Shown here piece by piece: positions 1 to 10,383 of a stretch of 27,685 bases of DNA. The position numbers and the translations under genes are program-made. The notes under the pieces were generated by a model, which saw only the letters and a list, made by a program, of their open reading frames with translations, had not been told where the DNA came from and ran no database searches. Where the stretch lies: positions 1 to 27,685 of IMG/VR virus record IMGVR_UViG_3300043777_000044. The stretch is one strand, 5' to 3'. The DNA comes from a virus. The first letter of the stretch is position 1. Each line of letters starts with the position of its first letter.

Positions 1-491
1 AGATAAGTCGCAGAGACACTGGATAACTGGATGTAAGTCGCCGTGGCGCTTGATGTGGTTAAGTAAGACCCGATCATCTGGTACGTCGCCGCGGCCGATG
101 ACGAGGTCAAGTATAGTCCAGGTATGACAGACAAATAGAACGTCCCTCCCCCCGCCAACTGTCCCGTGAAGATTGTGCTGTCCACGTTCAGCACGTATGT
201 AGGGCTCGAGATCACGGACGAGAACCCACCGGCATTTCCGGTGGTGACGGCCAGGACTGAGATCCCAGAGCCGGCGGATATCTGATCTATCGTGTCCATG
301 GCGTGCTGAAGGTTTGCGTCCAGAGAAGTCAGGTTCTTGGAGAATGTCGTCGTGTCCACGAAGACGTTCGTCGAGTTTACGACGTACTGGAAGGCATTGT
401 TCTTAGGGCCAAGAACGTCGATGACGGTCACGGTGGCGCGCGCAGAAGAAGCCAGTCCCAGGAGCCCAAGCGCGACAAGGAGCTTCTTCAC
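1..491 (-). CDS. Secreted-type fibre, N-terminal part (cut by window edge)
   Basis: A GTG at 491 overlaps the previous stop (GTGA) and follows GGTGAC. Translated by hand, 163 codons are visible. The first 19 residues form a Sec signal peptide: KK, LLVALGLLGL and SSARA before TVT. The sequence continues through a helical part (FSKNLTSLDANLQHAMDTIDQISAG) to repeats YLTSSSAAATYQMI, YLTTSSATATYIQL and SSVSATYL, which reach the window edge. The same repeat type occurs in the 886-residue fibre. The true length is unknown. Confidence 0.8.
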   Translation of the reverse strand, partial: MKKLLVALGLLGLASSARATVTVIDVLGPKNNAFQYVVNSTNVFVDTTTFSKNLTSLDANLQHAMDTIDQISAGSGISVLAVTTGNAGGFSSVISSPTYVLNVDSTIFTGQLAGGGTFYLSVIPGLYLTSSSAAATYQMIGSYLTTSSATATYIQLSSVSATY

Positions 492-1435
492 GGCGTCGTC
501 ACCACGACGGTCGTGGTCCCCAGATTTGAATTCACGCTTCTGTAGACGTAGTAGTTCTCGGTGTAGCCGGAGGCGTTCGTGATCGACAGCGTCTGTGGAG
601 CGTTGAAGCCACCAGAGAACCCTCCGACCGTGAACGAAGCGGTGCCGAGCCTGTCGGGATACGAGTAGACGATGTACTGCCCCGATCCCGCCGTCACGGT
701 GAACGTGATCGGGACCGAGTTCGTCAGGTCGCTTGAGGCCAGCGCTTGGACGTCAGCCTGGCTGTAGGTTCCAGACTGCGTCGAAACCCCGTGGTATCTG
801 GTGTTGTTGAAAGAGTGTGTCAGAGACGACGTCGCGCTCCCGGCCGCCCCTGCCGCATTGAGAGTGAAAGTTATCGAATTCCCAGGCGATCCGGGCATGT
901 TCACGTTGGCCGTGGACGCCGTCGGACCCTGGAACGAATTTGTCATTGTAAGGCCGGTGCCGTTGGAAACGTAGCCGCTTACTGCCGGTCCGTTCGTGTA
1001 GGATGCCGTGAAGGTTATTCCACCCGTCGAGACCCAGACCCCGGTGCCGATCTGGATGGTACCAGGTTCACCGTCCGAGAAAGAAGCGATTGCGAAGGCG
1101 TAGGAGCCGCCCGGAGGAGTCCACTCCGGCGCGCTCCCGTTCCACACGACAGAGTAATTGACGGAAGGAGAGCCGGTCACGCTGAATCCGGACACGCTGA
1201 CGGTCGAGAAATCTATGTCGACGGTATTGCTGGAGACCGAAGTCACGATCACAGCGGACCCCGTCGAGGCATTCACGCTGGACGTCGGAATGATGATCTG
1301 GTACGTCGTCGACAACGTGGCTGGAGCCTGGATCTGCATGTAATTCGTCGAGTTGAGATCGTACAGGGTTATGCCGTGGACCGCGAAGCACGGAGCCGGG
1401 AGGAAGAGGACAAGGAACGGCCAGAGCTTCCTCAA
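488..1435 (-). CDS. Secreted-type fibre, 315 residues, TTG start
   Basis: The frame opens further upstream, but the best start is a TTG at 1435 that overlaps the preceding stop (TTGA). From there the first 18 residues form a Sec signal peptide: RK, WPFLVLFLP and PCFA before VHG. The body is beta-rich. The C-terminal part is a known phage fibre domain: FNNTRYHGVST..GTYSQADVQALASSDL, GSGQYIVYSYPDRLG, then GGFSGGFNAPQTLSITNASGYTENYYVYRSVNSNLG. It ends in a GTGA overlap with the next fibre gene. No enzyme motif is seen. Confidence 0.78.
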   Translation of the reverse strand: MRKLWPFLVLFLPAPCFAVHGITLYDLNSTNYMQIQAPATLSTTYQIIIPTSSVNASTGSAVIVTSVSSNTVDIDFSTVSVSGFSVTGSPSVNYSVVWNGSAPEWTPPGGSYAFAIASFSDGEPGTIQIGTGVWVSTGGITFTASYTNGPAVSGYVSNGTGLTMTNSFQGPTASTANVNMPGSPGNSITFTLNAAGAAGSATSSLTHSFNNTRYHGVSTQSGTYSQADVQALASSDLTNSVPITFTVTAGSGQYIVYSYPDRLGTASFTVGGFSGGFNAPQTLSITNASGYTENYYVYRSVNSNLGTTTVVVTTP

Positions 1436-2124
1436 GACGCGATCAGCACTCCGGCCGTCGTCACGGTGACGACCCAAGATGTGTTCGAAGAATCCGTCAG
1501 GATGATCGAGGGAAGAGCGTGAGTGAAAGATCCTCCGGCGACCGTTTTGAACGTCCCGTTCGTGTTCATCGTCACTGTCCAGTAGACTCCGTCCGTGTCC
1601 TGAAGGACGAGCGTGTTGAAGTACAGGAAATCCGCCGGTCCGAAGCTCTGCTGAGTGAACACGAAATCGCCGGAGGTGTTCACCGTCACGACCCAGCGGA
1701 TCGAAGAAGAGTCGAACATGACGAGGCCGGTCGAATTGAAGATCGGCGGAGTTGGAAGTCCGGAGACGTTCTTCAAGACGTAAAAATCCGTTGCGTAACT
1801 CGGCGGCAGCTGAACCCCGTTCACGGTCGCCGAACCCTGCATCTGATATAGGCCGTTCTGGCTCAGATCGACGGTTGACATGACGTTCCTGGTCGTATAG
1901 ACGATGTTCCCGTCGGAGCCGTCGCTGTAGAGCGAGGCCGTGAACGTCTGTGAGGTCACTCCGTCCGGGTAGAGGAGCGAGATCGTCATGCCGGTGGCGG
2001 TCTGGAGCTGGATCGGGAGGCCGGTCTGCTGGTCTATCAACTGGACGACGATGGAAACGATGGCCCCGAGCTGATAATAGACCCCGCTCTGCGGGACGTC
2101 TGTTATCACGGTCACCTGATCCAT
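1432..2124 (-). CDS. Fibre protein with three tandem W-V-T-V repeats, 230 residues
   Basis: A beta-rich protein without a signal peptide. The N-terminal half is Ig-like (VTVITDVPQSGVYYQLGAIVSIVVQLID). The C-terminal 100 residues carry three copies of a motif like DSS..WVVTV.T.G (about 133-155, 172-193 and 207-229), each a probable beta hairpin. The ATG at 2124 has only GGG before it; a stop codon lies close upstream in frame, so no longer form is possible. It ends as TTGA with the next start. Likely a fibre or adhesin part. Confidence 0.75.
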   Translation of the reverse strand: MDQVTVITDVPQSGVYYQLGAIVSIVVQLIDQQTGLPIQLQTATGMTISLLYPDGVTSQTFTASLYSDGSDGNIVYTTRNVMSTVDLSQNGLYQMQGSATVNGVQLPPSYATDFYVLKNVSGLPTPPIFNSTGLVMFDSSSIRWVVTVNTSGDFVFTQQSFGPADFLYFNTLVLQDTDGVYWTVTMNTNGTFKTVAGGSFTHALPSIILTDSSNTSWVVTVTTAGVLIAS

Positions 2125-2258
2125 CCCGTGAAGAATCCGACGAACCGAACCTTAACGGCTTGGAACGACCTGATCGGGAAGGCCGCCAGGGTCCACGGGA
2201 AGGCTTGCGTGGCCTGGAGCCCGAGACCCGACAGTTGCCCAGGGAATCCTCTCAGCAC
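2112..2258 (-). CDS. Possible 48-residue ORF in fibre gap
   Basis: An open frame of 48 codons plus TGA fills the 135-base gap between two fibre genes and overlaps the next gene by 13 bases. It has a GTG start with GGTGAT a few bases upstream. It is in the same frame as the 212-residue gene, so it could also be read by rare readthrough of that stop. The product (VLRGFPGQLSGLGLQ, then aromatic and basic) has no recognisable domain. It may be a chance frame in a spacer or the remnant of a longer fibre. Confidence 0.3.
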   Translation of the reverse strand: MLRGFPGQLSGLGLQATQAFPWTLAAFPIRSFQAVKVRFVGFFTGWIR

Positions 2259-2259
2259 G

Positions 2260-2898
2260 TCAGATCACCAGAAAAGTATCAGCGGCGCTGGGGGCGGAGG
2301 GCGCCGGCTGATTGTTGTAGGCGACGAACGTTACGAGTCCGCCCGTCACCGCATAGGCGGTCACGAGGACGGCGAGGCTCGCGTTAACGCCGCTCGTGAA
2401 GTAGAGGGTCCTGCCAGCGATTATGTTCGCAACAGTGAGAGATAGATTCGTTGTCATCGTGCTTGATGTCAAGGTTCCCGCCGCCGCCGCGCCCACGACG
2501 AAAGCGTTGGACGATTTGGAAAGGTTGACCGCGGCCGGAGCAGATCCGTTGATGGCTCCAACATTGAGCGCCGATCCGACGGACATGACTCCCCCGCTCC
2601 CGTCCGTCACGAATATCTCGGTGTCAAAAGGGGTGTCTCCTGGTGCCGGTGACGCCGGGTTCTCTGGGTTGTAGAAAGTCGCCTTGATCAACCCGGCCGG
2701 GAGCGCGCCGGGGACGGTGAGCTTGTACTCTCCAGAACCCGCATCTTCCGGCGTGTCGACGACGTATTCGGACCAGTGGGCCTGATTGTAGTTCTCGTTC
2801 GCGGACCCGTTCCAGATCTGACCAAGGTTCAGGTTTCTGAGTGAGCAATAGACACCCAAGATCCCAGTTGATCCAGAAGCATATTGATATCCCGGCAT
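2260..2898 (-). CDS. Fibre or baseplate-fibre linker, 212 residues
   Basis: A beta-rich protein without a signal peptide. The start has GAGGAGA just before the ATG at 2898, formed by the previous stop. The N-terminal half resembles phage fibre modules with the pattern IWNGSANENY...Y.L.VPGALPAGLIKATFY, similar to BppU-like upper baseplate parts. The C-terminal half has SLTVANIIAGRTLYFTSGVNASLAVLVTAYAVTGGLVTFVAYN, a typical barrel repeat. It may link fibres to the baseplate, but this is inference. Confidence 0.75.
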   Translation of the reverse strand: MPGYQYASGSTGILGVYCSLRNLNLGQIWNGSANENYNQAHWSEYVVDTPEDAGSGEYKLTVPGALPAGLIKATFYNPENPASPAPGDTPFDTEIFVTDGSGGVMSVGSALNVGAINGSAPAAVNLSKSSNAFVVGAAAAGTLTSSTMTTNLSLTVANIIAGRTLYFTSGVNASLAVLVTAYAVTGGLVTFVAYNNQPAPSAPSAADTFLVI

Positions 2899-2907
2899 GG
2901 TGTCTCC

Positions 2908-5568
2908 TCAGTGGACCCGGATGGCGCTCATGCTTCCGAACGCCTGGGGAGTCCCGACCGTGTAGGTGGCTTCGTATTTCAGATAGAAAGTCGTGTTGAC
3001 CGTGGCTTGATACAGGAACGGCGATATCGTCATCGTCACGTTCTGGATGTTCGGCATGGAGCTCGTCAGCTCATTGTAACCCGAAAGGAGCGTCGCCGAA
3101 TTGTTCAACGGGACCGTCGAGATCCCGACGCTGTAGGCCGAACTGGTGGTCCCCGTCACGGCTTCCATCATGCCGCCGATCATCCACGTCCCCGTCGTCA
3201 GAGACATCACCGACAGATCTCCGAAGTTGCTCGTGCTTGGGAAGTTCGTCCCGCCGGTGGCCGTCGCTATGTAGACAACCTCGCCGATGTCACCCTGGAG
3301 CGCTTTTGAAGCCGTCAACGAACCGGCGATCCCGCACTGGATCGTGGCAGTCGTCATCACCGTGTTGGTTTCATACCCAGTTCCCAATGCGCCGCCGAGC
3401 TGAGTTGTGTTGGAGGCCTGCGGCATGGCGTTGAACCCAAGCCCGGCCGCGTTGTAGAGCCTCTGCGGTGTGGACGGGATCGGATCTTCCGCGCCTATTA
3501 ACGTCACGCCCGTAGAACTATAAGCCGCATAGCCCGCCTGATATCCGACATAAACATTGTCGGATGATCCAGTTCCACCATCGAACTGTCCGACGTTTAT
3601 TCCGGACTGGAACCCGACGGCAACATTGTTTCCTCCGGTGGTGATCGTCGCAAGAGAGTCGTAGCCGATTGCTACGTTGCTTGACGAAAGAAGGTTGTAA
3701 CCCGCATTGACACCGATAGTTTCGTTTGAGTTCCCAGTGCAGAAATTGCAGGCATCCACACCAAAGGAATCGTTGAAGAACCCGTTGATGAGTTGGTTAA
3801 GAGAGCCAGAACCGAAAGCCGAGTTGTATCCGCCTGTCCTCAAGCTGACCTCAGAATCCGTCCCGAATCCGCTGTTGTCCGTTCCTGTCCCGGTGGCGCT
3901 CGCCCCGGCGGAAGATCCAACGAAGGTGTCATCGAAGGCCCCGTTCTGGAGTCTCGCACCGGCCAAGTAACCCCAAGAGGTGTTCTGGTGCGCATTGCTG
4001 ACAGACTCGTTCGTGATCAGGTTCTCGTAGCCGTAGCCCATCTGGATCGTGTAGCTGGAGTAGATGACCGGGACCAGGGAAACCGAAGGAGTGACCGCGA
4101 TCTGGTAGACGACGAAACCGGGCGAGTTCGAGACAAATGATCCCGCCGAGAGCTGTCCCGCCACCGTTCCGCTGGATGTGAAGAACGTCGCGCCCGCCTG
4201 AAGGGCGCTCGTGTTCTGGACGTAGGCCGAGAGCGAAGAGGGGATCGCCGACGTGGAGATCGTCCCTGTCAAGTTGGATGCGTTCAAGTTCGTGATCAGA
4301 TTCCCGTTGAGCGCCGGGTACTGAGAGCCGGAAGTGAGCTGAACCAACTCGTTTCCGTTGTTGAAGACGTTCCCCTGCGCCGTCACGGACGATAGGTTCA
4401 CCTTGAGCCCCGCCGATGAGGTTCCGATCAGGTAGGCCGTAATCGTGTTGGAATCGGCAGCGACGGAAATAGTCGGGCTCGAAATCTGAGTGGTTCCATT
4501 GAACACGGCGAGGGTGCTCGAATTTGCATTTGAGAGAGGAGCCGCCCACGTCCCGTCACCCCTGAAAAACGTGCTCGACGTTGCCCCCGTTCCGGAGTTG
4601 AGGTTGGCCACGGGCAGGTTTCCAATCACCTGGCTTGACAGGCTCACGGACGAAACTGAAAGGGTGACGGAAGGCCCGGAGCCGCCGCCCGCCAACCCGG
4701 AACTGGCGACTATGGTTATGACGCTCCCGGCTCCCTTGGAGTTGAACGTGTTCCAATCCTGAGCTTGAAGGATTCCGGTCGATGTGGCGCTGGCATAGAC
4801 GCTGTTCTGGGCGTATGTCGCCGCCGCACTTGAAGTCTGGAGATAGGTGGCGGCCGCCGAGCTCTGGGTTAGGTAGTTCGAGGCCGCCGAGGTCGTGGAA
4901 AGATATTGAGCCGCCGCCGTCGTTGTTGAGAGGTATCCCAGGATTGTCGTTGTCGAGACATAGGCGCTCCCGAGTGCGTTTATCTGGTTCTGAAGGCTGA
5001 CCGTGGAGCCAGAGAGTGTCCCCGTGGCCGCGCCGACAGAAGCCATCTGGGACTGGAGCGAAACCGTCGAAACGGAAAGGGCCGAAACTGAGACGTTGAG
5101 AGCCAAAGTCGAGACGTTTATCGCCGTTATCTGCGTCTGGAGGCTGTTCGTCGAGACGTTAAGGGCTGTGGTCGAGACGGCGAGACTCGCAAGGGCCACT
5201 CCTTGAGATGTCGTCGAGACTCCCAGCGCGGCGGTCGAAACCCCGATTGCGTTGAACTTTGACTGAAGGTCGGACTGGTTCCCGATAGTTCCTGTGATAT
5301 TCCCCCAGGACACGCTGGCCGTGATGGTTGTCGTGGAGTAGAGCTGAGTCCCGTCTTGGAACGTGACGGTGGTTGTCTTGACCCCTTTATTGGCCGTGAG
5401 AAGGTGGGTGGTCGTGTCAACCGTGACGTCTGAATTCGTCGTGATCAGTCTCTGGTTCGAACCGTAAGCTACCTGAGAGACTGGAAGGATCGGCTGGACT
5501 GAATCAGCAAACGCGAGATTGCAGGCCCCCAGCGCGAAAAATATGCCCGTGAAGATGAACTTCTTCAC
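2908..5568 (-). CDS. Large secreted-type trimeric fibre, 886 residues
   Basis: A GTG start with AAGGA upstream gives a Sec-type signal peptide: KK, a hydrophobic run and NLAFA before DSV. A Cys at 16 in LGAC could instead act as a lipobox. Residues 109-200 are short heptad-like repeats (VSTTAL, VSTNSL, VSTVSL) suggesting a trimeric stalk. Residues 211-257 hold about four copies of a YL(S/T)xSSAAATY repeat. DWNTFNSKG (271-279) and STFFRGDGTWAAP (332-344) are common phage-fibre motifs. Residues 563-695 are YadA-head-like repeats (NVAIGYDSL, NNVAVGFQSG, NVYVGYQAG). The last 100 residues look like a globular C1q-like tip. Confidence 0.83.
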   Translation of the reverse strand: MKKFIFTGIFFALGACNLAFADSVQPILPVSQVAYGSNQRLITTNSDVTVDTTTHLLTANKGVKTTTVTFQDGTQLYSTTTITASVSWGNITGTIGNQSDLQSKFNAIGVSTAALGVSTTSQGVALASLAVSTTALNVSTNSLQTQITAINVSTLALNVSVSALSVSTVSLQSQMASVGAATGTLSGSTVSLQNQINALGSAYVSTTTILGYLSTTTAAAQYLSTTSAASNYLTQSSAAATYLQTSSAAATYAQNSVYASATSTGILQAQDWNTFNSKGAGSVITIVASSGLAGGGSGPSVTLSVSSVSLSSQVIGNLPVANLNSGTGATSSTFFRGDGTWAAPLSNANSSTLAVFNGTTQISSPTISVAADSNTITAYLIGTSSAGLKVNLSSVTAQGNVFNNGNELVQLTSGSQYPALNGNLITNLNASNLTGTISTSAIPSSLSAYVQNTSALQAGATFFTSSGTVAGQLSAGSFVSNSPGFVVYQIAVTPSVSLVPVIYSSYTIQMGYGYENLITNESVSNAHQNTSWGYLAGARLQNGAFDDTFVGSSAGASATGTGTDNSGFGTDSEVSLRTGGYNSAFGSGSLNQLINGFFNDSFGVDACNFCTGNSNETIGVNAGYNLLSSSNVAIGYDSLATITTGGNNVAVGFQSGINVGQFDGGTGSSDNVYVGYQAGYAAYSSTGVTLIGAEDPIPSTPQRLYNAAGLGFNAMPQASNTTQLGGALGTGYETNTVMTTATIQCGIAGSLTASKALQGDIGEVVYIATATGGTNFPSTSNFGDLSVMSLTTGTWMIGGMMEAVTGTTSSAYSVGISTVPLNNSATLLSGYNELTSSMPNIQNVTMTISPFLYQATVNTTFYLKYEATYTVGTPQAFGSMSAIRVH

Positions 5569-5571
5569 TCA

Positions 5572-7632
5572 TCAGTCCTTGGCCGTCAAGATGACTTTCA
5601 AGTTGACTCCCCCCTGGTTCGGTCCGGTTATGTTGTACCTGAGGTAGTTGTAGTCAACAACGCCGAAATCTTGGACGGTCGTTGTGGATGGATTTATGGC
5701 CGTGAAGGTATTCGAGTTCACGGTCTGTCCGCCCGCCGTCGTCGAGTAGGCGGTCCAGTTCACACCGTCGTTGGAAGCCTGCCAAGAGGCAGAAGCCGAG
5801 CCCGCTATGTATGTGCTGGGCGTCACCGTATAGGTGTGCGCCGACGTCGTCGGGTCGGTGCTCTTCAAGATGACCGGGAAATTGGATTGCGCGAGGGCGC
5901 TCGTGGTCGCCAGTTCGATGTCGTTGGCGTCTGCGACGATGACGTAGTAAGTGGTCCCACCAACAAGTCCGGCTATGCTTCCTCCGGAAGGAGTGCTGAA
6001 AAGGACCGGCAGAGCCGTTGTGAAGCCGTGGTTTGGCAAAGATATTGTCGCCGAACCGGAAGAGTAAGCCGGATTCAAGCCACCCGTGAAGCCGACCGCC
6101 GTCAACTGGGACTGAGTTGAAGATGTCAGGGTATAGTTGTAGACCGTCCCGTTGTTGGTCGCCGTCGCATAGACCACGTTGGACGTGTTGCTGGCCGCGA
6201 TCAGCGGACCCAGAACCGCATTGGCGTCTATCGCCGCCGCTATCGAACCGGCGGCCGTCGACGTTGTCGAGCTGGATCCGAGCGTCCAGTTCGTCGGGTA
6301 CTGAAACACGGTCCCGTTTATCGTGAAAGAGGCGTTGTCCTGTCCTCCGGTGAACAATGCCGATCCAGCCGTGAACCCGCTGAGACCGGGTCCCTGCGTT
6401 GTGGCAAGGGTTATCAGGTTTCCGGCCGCGCCCGCCGCACCCGCCTTGAGATTCACAACCCCGCCAGATGTGGAGGCGGTGACGTTCCCGAATCCGCCCG
6501 TGTCGTCAGAGTTGATCGTCGTGGATATGCTGTTCAGGAAATTTGTGATGGATTGGGCCGCGCCAGTGGATGTGTTCGAGGCGTCGCTCCAGTGGTATCC
6601 GTTCCGGTAGGTGTAAGCCCCGACCTTGAAGTACGCCCCTAGCAAGGCGCGATTAAGACCACCAGAGAAATTTGTGCTGGAAACCGAAACCAACGGAGAG
6701 GACGTTGTCGCCATGGTGTAGGCGTTCTGGAAAGAACCGTTCACCGTTGCGGTCGCGAATATCTCGCCGGACACGTTTGATGCCACGATGGAGCCGATTC
6801 CAAGAGCCGGACCGTTCCCTCCGATGTCGTTTATGAGTCCGGCGAGGATGCCCGCGGCGTCCGTGACTGTGTCCGTGCTCGGCCAGTTGGCCCCGTAGGT
6901 GAAAGCGAAATTCTGAAGCGTGTTGTTGATCGTGACGGTCGTCGGATTTGTGCCTCCGCTGTACACCCCTGTTGAGACGTAGTTCCCGTTGCTCGACGTC
7001 ACTGGATAGCCGTTGTAGGATGTCCCGCTGGATATGTAGGTGATGGCGACCCCGGTGGAGCTGACCACGGACGCCGTGAAGGTTCCTCCCGCATTTATGG
7101 CGGAAGCGAGAGTTGTCGCGGCGTGCTGGATCGTGTCTGTGCTGGCCCAGTTCCCACCCCACGTGTAGGTCAGATATCCGTTCAAGACGATGCTTGGCGA
7201 GGACGAGGAAATGTAGGCATAACTGCTCAAAGCCGTCGTGAAGCTGGCCGGGACTCCCGCCAAACCAGTAAGCGATTCCACCGTGATCTGGCCCGTTGCA
7301 GGGGACCCGAGGATCTGAGCGGTCGTCGGCATTGTCAAACTGTCTGTCGCGAAAGAGGCTATGAGTGCCTGTGTCGACACAACCGTGATCGTGGCCGTGG
7401 ACTCCTGGCCACCGATGAACGTCTGGGCCGGTATTGTGGCGGAAGCGTAAGTCACCTGAACCGAGAGCTTCGACGCCGCGCCCTGAGGAGATGCGAACTG
7501 GAGGAGGTTCTGGGTCGCCACCGTGCTGTATGCCAGGGCCGGGTTGTTAACCAGGGTCACAGTGCCAGAGACTGCGAAAGCTGGCGCTGAAAGTCCGGCC
7601 AGAAGAAATGCGGCGGTCAGGAATTTTCTCAT
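5572..7632 (-). CDS. Secreted-type repeat fibre/adhesin, 686 residues
   Basis: The ATG at 7632 follows GAGGAGAA; upstream in-frame readings overlap the collar gene. The first 20 residues are a Sec signal peptide: RK, a long hydrophobic run and APAFA before VSG. Four tandem domains of 83-102 residues follow (148-230, 231-327, 331-432, 433-521), each ending in a GG motif (YSGGTNP, FSGGLNR, FTGGQDN, FTGGLNP). Residues about 527-605 contain NHGFTTALPVLF...GLVGGTTYYVIVADANDIELA, a module known from phage fibres. The end (WQASNDGVNWTAY...NYLRYNITG) is a beta sandwich. It is probably a receptor-binding or surface-displayed protein. No catalytic motif is seen. Confidence 0.82.
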   Translation of the reverse strand: MRKFLTAAFLLAGLSAPAFAVSGTVTLVNNPALAYSTVATQNLLQFASPQGAASKLSVQVTYASATIPAQTFIGGQESTATITVVSTQALIASFATDSLTMPTTAQILGSPATGQITVESLTGLAGVPASFTTALSSYAYISSSSPSIVLNGYLTYTWGGNWASTDTIQHAATTLASAINAGGTFTASVVSSTGVAITYISSGTSYNGYPVTSSNGNYVSTGVYSGGTNPTTVTINNTLQNFAFTYGANWPSTDTVTDAAGILAGLINDIGGNGPALGIGSIVASNVSGEIFATATVNGSFQNAYTMATTSSPLVSVSSTNFSGGLNRALLGAYFKVGAYTYRNGYHWSDASNTSTGAAQSITNFLNSISTTINSDDTGGFGNVTASTSGGVVNLKAGAAGAAGNLITLATTQGPGLSGFTAGSALFTGGQDNASFTINGTVFQYPTNWTLGSSSTTSTAAGSIAAAIDANAVLGPLIAASNTSNVVYATATNNGTVYNYTLTSSTQSQLTAVGFTGGLNPAYSSGSATISLPNHGFTTALPVLFSTPSGGSIAGLVGGTTYYVIVADANDIELATTSALAQSNFPVILKSTDPTTSAHTYTVTPSTYIAGSASASWQASNDGVNWTAYSTTAGGQTVNSNTFTAINPSTTTVQDFGVVDYNYLRYNITGPNQGGVNLKVILTAKD

Positions 7633-7643
7633 GATTGTTCTCC

Positions 7644-8573
7644 TCAGTATTTGATTATCTTCGTGACCACTCCGGAAGGTTGCATGTTGTTGTGAGCGGC
7701 CCCTCCTCCCGTGAGATTGTTCGTCGCCGTCGTCTGTCCGGTTGTCGGATCGAACTGCGTTATGTAAATAGGCGAACCTGAAACGATGAGTCCGGTCCCG
7801 GTGCTTTCCGAGGCATTGGAACCGACGAAATTCGTTGAGCCGGCTGATGGTCCGTGGCTGTGCGGATTCTGACTGTGGTTGTGGGAAGGCATCTCTCCAA
7901 CAACAAGGACATGGGTTTCCTCGCCCAGAGTTTGACCAAGAGTCCTTGGGGTCAACCCGGAACCGGTCCCGGCTCCTATGCTGGTCCTGCCCCTCATGTC
8001 CGGCACGTTGAAGTTCGGACCGCTCCCGCCCCAGGTATAGCCTATAACGGCAAAGAGGGCCGGGTACGACGTGGCCGAATAGCTCGAACCGTCGCACATG
8101 AGCCATCCGGTCGGTGCCGTGCTTCCAGCGAAATCTATCATGGAACCCGCGGGCGTCGCCTCCGTGTTCAGGTAAGTCCAGTAGGCGTCAGAGGATTGAT
8201 TCGGCAGAGGGTTTCCGACATTATCGTCTATGGCCGAAGAGAACATGAAATTCGTTCCGTCCTGCCGGACGATGCTCCCGGTGTAGTACGTCGTGTCCGG
8301 GTCCCAAGCCGGTATTCCGTCTTGGAAAAGGTTGCAGAGCTGTTGGAAGATCAAAAGCGTGATGCCGTTCATGTCCTCCAGGTAGGGGGCCTTGTTTCCG
8401 GAGATGACGGCTTGCTCCCAACCGTTCTGCGTGAATGCCGGGAGCGCCTGAATCGTGGCGGCGTCCTGCGTTGTGACAGGGAATCCGGCCGCTTTCGAAC
8501 CGAACTGTCCGAAGTTGGCCGTTGTTCCTGCGGCACCGAAAAGATTTTGGAATACTCGGGGGATCTTCGCCAT
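7644..8573 (-). CDS. Tail fibre with phage tail collar domain
   Basis: A 309-residue fibre protein. It starts as TGATG with the wedge gene. Residues about 85-135 form a small binding-type module (PAWDPDTTYYTGSIVRQDG...DDNVGNPLP...YWTYL). Residues about 140-205 are the collar domain: APTGWLMCDGSSYSATSYPALFAVIG, then FNVPDMRGRTSIGAG. A His-rich stretch, PSHNHSQNPHSHG (229-241), resembles the metal-binding HxH clusters of T4 gp12-like fibres. The end, NNMQPSGVVTKIIKY, is the usual collar-fibre C-terminus. No signal peptide is present, unlike the genes that follow. Confidence 0.9.
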   Translation of the reverse strand: MAKIPRVFQNLFGAAGTTANFGQFGSKAAGFPVTTQDAATIQALPAFTQNGWEQAVISGNKAPYLEDMNGITLLIFQQLCNLFQDGIPAWDPDTTYYTGSIVRQDGTNFMFSSAIDDNVGNPLPNQSSDAYWTYLNTEATPAGSMIDFAGSTAPTGWLMCDGSSYSATSYPALFAVIGYTWGGSGPNFNVPDMRGRTSIGAGTGSGLTPRTLGQTLGEETHVLVVGEMPSHNHSQNPHSHGPSAGSTNFVGSNASESTGTGLIVSGSPIYITQFDPTTGQTTATNNLTGGGAAHNNMQPSGVVTKIIKY

Positions 8574-9184
8574 CAGATCGAAACCACGTTGGCCAGCACG
8601 CCGCAAGAGTTCGGGAGTATCTGCGCGAGAACGACGGCACCCCAGAGATCGTCTGGATCTGGGTCGATGGATTGATGTTGGTAAGTCATGGTCATGTTCC
8701 CATTGTCGACCAAATTCACGTAGATTCCGAACGTAGTGTACAATATGGCGTCAAGTGCTCCAAGAGTCAACGGAGAGGAGTCGAGAAGCGCCTTGAACTG
8801 AATCATTCGGCGCATCTGCGGGTCCGTCAGGACCGCCGTCGTCACGTCGTCGTATTGGAGCCAGAGCCAATTCGGCGCAGAGCCCGCGTAAGTCGCCCAC
8901 CCATAGTAAGAATCCGGAGACGGATCGTTGTATGGAACCAGAGACCAATAGTTTCCGCTCGGCAACCCGAACAACTGTCTCGGGATTCCACGATATGTCC
9001 CGAGGATCGTCAACTGCGCCCCGGAAGCCGTGGCCAGCTCGAAGGCCTCCTGAACCTGTGTCGTGATCTGGTTCTGAACCAGAGCGCCGACGTAGGCCTG
9101 GATCGTGCCAATCGCATTTGGAAGCGATACATACTGGACGATCAGCAGTTCGCTGTAGTAAGAGAGAACGTCCGAAGTCAGCAT
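8573..9184 (-). CDS. Baseplate wedge, DUF2612 type
   Basis: A 203-residue protein in the place of P2 gpI. The N-terminal half follows DUF2612: ELLIVQYVSLPNAIGTIQAYVGALV, EAFELATASGAQLTILGTYRGIPRQLFG. A later WLWLQYDD and the TLGALDAILYTTFG segment are typical as well. The ATG overlaps the gpJ stop (TGATG), so a long reading from 9556 is rejected. It probably anchors the receptor-binding proteins that follow. Confidence 0.85.
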   Translation of the reverse strand: MLTSDVLSYYSELLIVQYVSLPNAIGTIQAYVGALVQNQITTQVQEAFELATASGAQLTILGTYRGIPRQLFGLPSGNYWSLVPYNDPSPDSYYGWATYAGSAPNWLWLQYDDVTTAVLTDPQMRRMIQFKALLDSSPLTLGALDAILYTTFGIYVNLVDNGNMTMTYQHQSIDPDPDDLWGAVVLAQILPNSCGVLANVVSI

Positions 9185-10383
9185 CAGGTCGACACCGTTA
9201 TGTTCGCCGATGACACAGTGAAGTAGTGTTGCGCGTCGGTCGGCTCGACGATGGACGCCCAGCTCGAATTGTCGACGGAAACGCCCTGGGTTGCGCTGAT
9301 GGAGAGGATCGCCGTCGGAGCGATCGCTTGCATGGCCCTGAGCACGTCGCCTATGCTCGGAGTCTGCCCGAGCTTGTAGACCAATACCGGGGCCAGCGCG
9401 ACCGCCACTTGGGAATTCGAAAGGAGCTGTGGACCGACCCAGTTGACGGTGAAAGCTATGTAAAGCGGTTGGGATATGGCCACGTCCCATTGGGCCGCGA
9501 ATGTGGAACCGTTTGGCCTCGTCACGAGCTGGGACACAGACCCCTTCATGGCGCACCCCGGACTCTTTTTAACGTAGATGGCCTGAGCGATCTGTGCGGC
9601 GGTCCCGCCGGCTACGATGACCCAGATGCAGTTCTTCGGGATCGGTCCAACGGTCGCGCCGGTGTCGTTCTCGACGACATAGGCGTCCGTGACTCCAGGG
9701 ATGTTCCTCAAGAGTGACTCCATGGCGTCGCTCATCCCGGTGGAAGCCAATGTAAAACTCTGATCATGCCGGATCTGGAGCTGGGCATCTGATTCCTCGT
9801 TCACACCTATGATGTCGGAGGCCACAGACGGATTGTTGACGGAAGTTATCCCGAGTGTCGCCGTGACTATGTTCGTTATCGTGTTTGCGATAGTCGTCAC
9901 AACACCAATCGTGACGGCCTGAAATGTGACGGTCTGCGTTCCCGCAGAGGCGAACACAAGACTTGTCACGAGCTGGAACTGGTTCCCGGCTTCGTCTGCG
10001 ACCGTGAAAGCCGGAACCGCCGTCTGGTCCAATCCAGGCACCGTTATCGCCTGAGAAGCCGTCACAGCGACCTGGGCCTGCGTGTATGTTCCCTGCTGTC
10101 TCGCGAGCCCGTTGAGCGCGACGAGTTGGTCGAGGCGCGGTCCGTAAGAAGTCGGAACGGCGAAGTTGTTGTAGGTGTCCAAGAGCAGTTCGAGATAATC
10201 TATGTCGGACTGAGCAAATATATTTATAAGCTGGCCGTCCGGAGAGTTCGATTCAAGGTTCACGTCCGATCCGTAGATGGACTGCAACGCCGACTCCAGG
10301 AAGGAAATTATGTTCGCCAGGGATTCTATGGCCAGACCGGCCCCGCTTATCGTGCTGACGTTTGGATCGACTGGTAGGCTCAT
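9184..10383 (-). CDS. Baseplate wedge, gpJ-like
   Basis: A 399-residue wedge protein. The gpJ pattern is clear: NSPDGQLINIFAQSDIDYLELLLDTYNNFAVPTSYGPRLDQLVALNGLAR in the N-terminal part, ESDAQLQIRHDQSFTLASTGMSDAMESLLRNIPGVTDAYVVEN in the middle and GDVLRAMQAI near the end. The start has GGGGAG ahead of the ATG, stronger than most baseplate genes. It stops in TGATG with the next wedge. It would bridge gp25-like wedge and fibre-bearing proteins. Confidence 0.92.
   Translation of the reverse strand: MSLPVDPNVSTISGAGLAIESLANIISFLESALQSIYGSDVNLESNSPDGQLINIFAQSDIDYLELLLDTYNNFAVPTSYGPRLDQLVALNGLARQQGTYTQAQVAVTASQAITVPGLDQTAVPAFTVADEAGNQFQLVTSLVFASAGTQTVTFQAVTIGVVTTIANTITNIVTATLGITSVNNPSVASDIIGVNEESDAQLQIRHDQSFTLASTGMSDAMESLLRNIPGVTDAYVVENDTGATVGPIPKNCIWVIVAGGTAAQIAQAIYVKKSPGCAMKGSVSQLVTRPNGSTFAAQWDVAISQPLYIAFTVNWVGPQLLSNSQVAVALAPVLVYKLGQTPSIGDVLRAMQAIAPTAILSISATQGVSVDNSSWASIVEPTDAQHYFTVSSANITVST

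Follow-up and report, generated by a model that had tools for sequence, protein, structure and literature searches.

Four of the six genes that follow the tail-collar gene in the tail operon of a dwarf myovirus are predicted to begin with a Sec signal peptide of the signal peptidase I type, a trait that on sequence evidence appears real, conserved, recurrent among related phages, and apparently undescribed. The minus strand of the window, a whole IMG/VR record of 27,685 bases, encodes a myovirus head-to-tail module with terminase, portal, head, sheath, tube, baseplate, and collar genes, and after it a fibre cassette that is interrupted by the contig end. In the standard account, tailed phages assemble wholly in the cytoplasm, and ordinary ones are not known to put export signals on tail fibres. 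Sec signals on most long fibres of a recurrent family would point either to virion assembly split between compartments or to phage-made envelope adhesins or receptor blockers.

By its gene order (terminase, portal, head, sheath, tube, tape, baseplate, fibres) and its homologous sheath and baseplate J-like protein (BppJ), the window belongs with the phiPLPE-like dwarf myoviruses. Their genomes are of ~45 kb, and the window is a 27.7-kb fragment. Its top cultured match by both proteins is Bdellovibrio phage phi1422 (34-39% identical; 37.7% for sheath and 38.7% for BppJ), itself a phiPLPE-like dwarf myovirus (PMC3391216). Phi1422 has the gene order of the window and predicted signals on its own gp68 and gp75, but by the searches run its fibres lack homology to those of the window, and gp67, its first fibre, is signal-less. 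The main text on this phage (PMC3391216) makes no mention of signal peptides. No match to phage records was found for the window DNA, or for its fibres by tblastn; scanning whole fibres against IMG/VR gave no relatives, and a sheath alignment scan of genome contigs gave no confirmed relative.

Predicted signals in the fibre cassette

Signals were called with an n/h/c-region score that combines a positively charged n-region, a hydrophobic core, and an AxA-type cleavage site. The score flagged 6/6 signal-bearing S74 (MAT) fibres from two Bdellovibrionota genomes and 1/433 non-fibre phage head, tail, and baseplate genes. It misses evident signals in an 844-aa protein of the related phage L093 and in L161 and L132, so that our signal counts are lower bounds. 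By this score, all four N-termini singled out in the initial annotation conform to the Sec/signal peptidase I pattern, and every other gene of the window is negative, including the 212- and 230-aa neighbours and the baseplate genes, which it had described as lacking signals. When whole proteins were shuffled, 1.9-5.7% of the products, depending on the cassette gene, had a signal-like N-terminus, a rate at which 4/6 would arise by chance with p <= ~2e-4.

Table 1. Features of the window and of a fibre gene shared by three relatives (slash, predicted cleavage site)
Feature	Coordinates	Strand	Start	Predicted signal	Evidence
Fibre-like protein, >=163 aa (contig end cuts gene)	3..491	-	GTG	MKKLLVALGLLGLASSARA/T, 491-435	PHROG 35197 E 4.5e-4, residues 1-89
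Fibre-like protein, 315 aa	488..1435	-	TTG	MRKLWPFLVLFLPAPCFA/V, 1435-1382	Orthologue L093:18340-21180
Cassette protein, 230 aa	1432..2124	-		None	L093 orthologue likewise without signal
Cassette protein, 212 aa	2260..2898	-		None	L093 orthologue likewise without signal
Long fibre-like protein, 886 aa	2908..5568	-	GTG	MKKFIFTGIFFALGACNLAFA/D, 5568-5506	Orthologue L093:14361-16892
Tail-cassette fibre-like protein, 686 aa	5572..7632	-	ATG	MRKFLTAAFLLAGLSAPAFA/V, 7632-7573	Orthologue L093:12708-14354, 47% identical, with signal
Tail collar fibre, 308 aa	7644..8570	-		None	Pfam Collar E 1.5e-21
Tail protein adjoining BppJ	8573..9184	-		None	Alignment A4 with phi1422 gp66 and kin
BppJ, anchor for finding relatives	9184..10383	-			Pfam Baseplate_J E 3.5e-15
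Shared fibre gene	L100:12073-13824			Present	
Shared fibre gene	L138:12080-13858			Present	
Shared fibre gene	L130:12024-13676			None	

The cassette lies in the tail operon after BppJ together with the collar fibre, the position of phage tail fibres. The 686-aa gene has a clear Shine-Dalgarno sequence, GAGGAG, and the starts of the other three signal-bearing genes overlap or abut the preceding stop (TGATGAGTG, TTGA, and GTGA, in the order 5568, 1435, 491), as in translationally coupled operons. The predicted signal of the 886-aa protein includes LGAC, a non-canonical lipobox, and the product may be lipidated. This protein has a beta-repeat region at residues 527-659, and among known fibre families it matches a PHROG tail spike at no better than E 1e-4. 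Residues 208-312 of the 315-aa protein form a C-terminal domain common to proteins of human gut phages (43% identity, MT835917), with a weak match also to the PaBG tail fibre, and these gut-phage and PaBG proteins are all without signal. The 315- and 686-aa proteins gave unusable AlphaFold models (mean pLDDT 35 and 32, respectively).

Conservation and distribution among relatives

The nearest relative, L093, whose BppJ is 62% identical to that of the window, sits on a 48.8-kb contig that encodes an integrase. It holds orthologues of the collar gene (50% identical) and of the next five cassette genes with order kept (47%, 37%, 54%, 48%, and 31% identical, in that order). The orthologues of the three matched signal-bearing genes all have signals, and those of the two signal-less genes have none. 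Relatives lacking these N-termini had been named in the initial annotation as grounds against the signals; that the L093 orthologues instead have them at corresponding positions, even though identity is low, supports the start calls made in the window. In the orthologues of the 886- and 315-aa proteins, the signal and the N-terminal ~100 and ~60 aa, respectively, are conserved before the sequences diverge, and this combination of a like N-terminus with a divergent remainder is a mosaic fibre pattern. The L093 cassette continues with two further signal-bearing proteins.

A scan with a BppJ alignment recovered 80 relatives in IMG/VR. Across 57 loci, at least 33/137 fibre-like genes after BppJ have a signal, compared to 1/433 upstream non-fibre structural genes (Fisher p 4e-21). 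The distribution on the BppJ tree is patchy, with signal-bearing fibre genes in 18 of 57 phages and none in 39; a single origin of the trait is unsupported, as the tree calls for ~12 changes, at least 5 of them forced. Essentially all long fibre-type proteins of L093 and of the phage in G003 bear signals, leaving none without. No signals were found on the fibres of four phiPLPE-like phages in culture, whose hosts are Aeromonas, Pectobacterium, Vibrio, and Iodobacter. The view that the signals are real and not general to the phage is supported by the L093 orthologues and by many relatives. A gp68 orthologue with signal also occurs in a prophage that has integrated into the chromosome of a member of the Bdellovibrionota. 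This phi1422-like prophage, at G095:C12 about 79000-139000 (L089, L090, L173, L174), is the only one in 291 genomes searched.

Several signal-bearing proteins of relatives stand out individually. In the G003 phage, a 1438-aa fibre is encoded between the gp25-like gene and BppJ (L124:5671-9984), and a Collar-domain protein follows a signal-less gene at the collar position (L124:12693-13292). A 1263-aa fibre (L132:4458-8246) ends in an S74 chaperone domain, as do MATs and phage spikes, and a 674-aa cassette protein (L193:846-2867) has a marginal GH123 match at its N-terminal domain.

Signals on phage fibres and the likeness to bacterial adhesins

Among the relatives, the same fibre occurs with and without a signal. 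One fibre gene, at the same locus directly after the same tail gene, has a signal in L100 and L138 and none in L130, a natural experiment among close relatives. Between L100 and L130, identity of the protein is 68% from just after the signal through to the end, close to that of the flanking genes (73% and 71%), and nothing able to encode a signal was found upstream of the L130 start. As L100 and L130 encode the same protein, it probably does the same job in both. Likewise, gp75 of phi1422 has a signal and its prophage counterpart does not, and a fibre start of the form KISQLP...D.FPYVDS...TKR follows a signal in L094, L104, L108, and G003 but not in phi1422 gp67. The signal-bearing L100 fibre has virion and tail-fibre PHROG matches down to E 1e-28, and in the G003 phage a 190-aa protein joins a signal to a Pfam Collar domain (2.4e-13) with T4 gp12 homology. 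By these comparisons, the predicted signal is an add-on to genuine phage fibres, gained or lost on an otherwise unchanged protein.

This pattern bears on whether the segments are Sec signals at all. Only one of the four genes begins with ATG in the window, the other three having GTG or TTG, so the starts might be miscalled, or the segments could be hydrophobic anchors embedded in the virion. We regard either as very improbable, since charge, core, and AxA pattern persist in divergent orthologues, several relatives have ATG starts, the segments are confined to fibre-type genes, and the L130 fibre is otherwise unchanged without one. Sec export of the signal-bearing fibres is instead very likely from their predicted N-termini, which suggests that they cross the host cell envelope before acting.

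Conventional collar and tail fibres have the same domains (T4 gp12 collar domain, PHROG tail fibres) and the same position after BppJ, but they have no signal peptide, and both their synthesis and their assembly are cytoplasmic. Sec signals are used by the coat proteins g3p and g8p of filamentous phages and by the T5 lipoprotein Llp, but these have other folds and roles and are not tail fibres of tailed phages. The initial annotation knew of no described system of this kind. For tailed phages this stands, in that no account of Sec-exported fibres was found in the open-access literature searched; in bacteria, however, the mosaic adhesive trimer (MAT) fibres of Bdellovibrio bacteriovorus, which are signal-bearing, phage-fibre-like, and displayed on the cell surface, are a close functional precedent (PMC10769870).

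The cassette fibres resemble MAT fibres in having a signal, a conserved N-terminus, and a variable C-terminal tip. They differ in lying in a tail operon, where MAT genes are chromosomal, and in lacking the ~130-aa conserved domain that follows the signal at the N-terminus of MAT adhesins and defines them (PMC10769870). It had been proposed that the phage took up host secreted adhesins, and for the MAT family tested this is most unlikely. MATs are mosaic as well as signal-bearing and phage-fibre-like, and some shaft repeats do match (an L094 fibre with L190, E 2e-12; the 886-aa fibre of the window with an S74 protein from a single Bdellovibrionota genome, E 4e-4), but weak shaft similarities are what fibre repeats would be expected to give. 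The MAT N-terminal domain, recognisable in 5/6 MATs, matched no signal-bearing phage fibre even at E 1, and capture from MAT adhesins was rejected on this absence. In addition, phi1422 gp68 had no chromosomal homologue in 282 Bdellovibrionota genomes outside a prophage, and signal-bearing relatives have mature parts that belong to phage fibre families, with N-termini that match signal-less phage fibres. The link to Bdellovibrio, a predator that binds its prey with exported phage-like fibres of its own, may indicate a route from phage fibres to bacterial adhesins.

Possible fates of the exported fibres

Of the other two meanings initially proposed, export before assembly and display on the host, both stay in play. 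We tentatively prefer a reading in which fibres are exported through Sec, cleaved, and later joined to virions. Fibres made from the tail operon of this dwarf myovirus, kin of phi1422, would leave the cytoplasm through Sec, lose the signal to signal peptidase I, and fold outside the cytoplasm; lysis would then mix cytoplasmic particles with envelope contents, allowing fibre and particle, made in separate compartments, to join. This reading draws on the retention of signals in L093 orthologues, their confinement to fibre-type genes, and the membership of signal-bearing relatives in virion families (PHROG to 1e-28, Pfam Collar 2.4e-13, T4 gp12-like). Attachment after export is favoured because L100 and L130 have the same fibre with or without signal and because some phages bear signals on all long fibre-type proteins. 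In T4 and P22, fibres or spikes attach to finished particles in extracts. Cysteine content did not tell the two readings apart: enrichment in fibres with signals, which would mark oxidative folding, was not significant (p 0.24), although cysteine parity leans weakly to even numbers (p 0.03). The fuller scheme, in which the particle is built in the cytoplasm and the receptor-binding fibres in the periplasm, the two are joined only at lysis, and lineages add or drop the signal on the same gene, is plausible but somewhat short of probable.

Exported fibres might instead be retained in the periplasm, at the surface of the infected cell, or in its medium, where they would block receptors or alter host adhesion, a serious possibility that we hold no more than tentatively. 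Receptor block would save progeny from loss and exclude superinfection, as does the receptor-blocking lipoprotein Llp of T5. The default effect of a signal peptide is to move a protein away from where particles assemble, several fibre genes have none, and Bdellovibrio shows secreted phage-like fibres on its own surface (PMC10769870). Moreover, only short ~10 nm terminal fibres are reported for phiPLPE-type virions (PMC3391216), so that virions may not carry the long fibres that are exported. The L093 integrase would permit lysogenic expression, but phi1422 is reported to be lytic (PMC3391216), and 8/9 records tested lack an integrase, so that neither a host benefit in lysogeny nor a lysogenic-only function is general. 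No outer-membrane transport element was seen, and the L100/L130 pair points to one job with or without a signal.

Two further genes of relatives were also observed. L193:4404-4880 encodes a small signal-bearing protein without Pfam match that follows the cassette, adjoins a holin-like gene, and may belong to the lysis module. In phi1422, a candidate lipoprotein with an LSGC lipobox (L003:43091-43432) overlaps gp72 and is a possible spanin.
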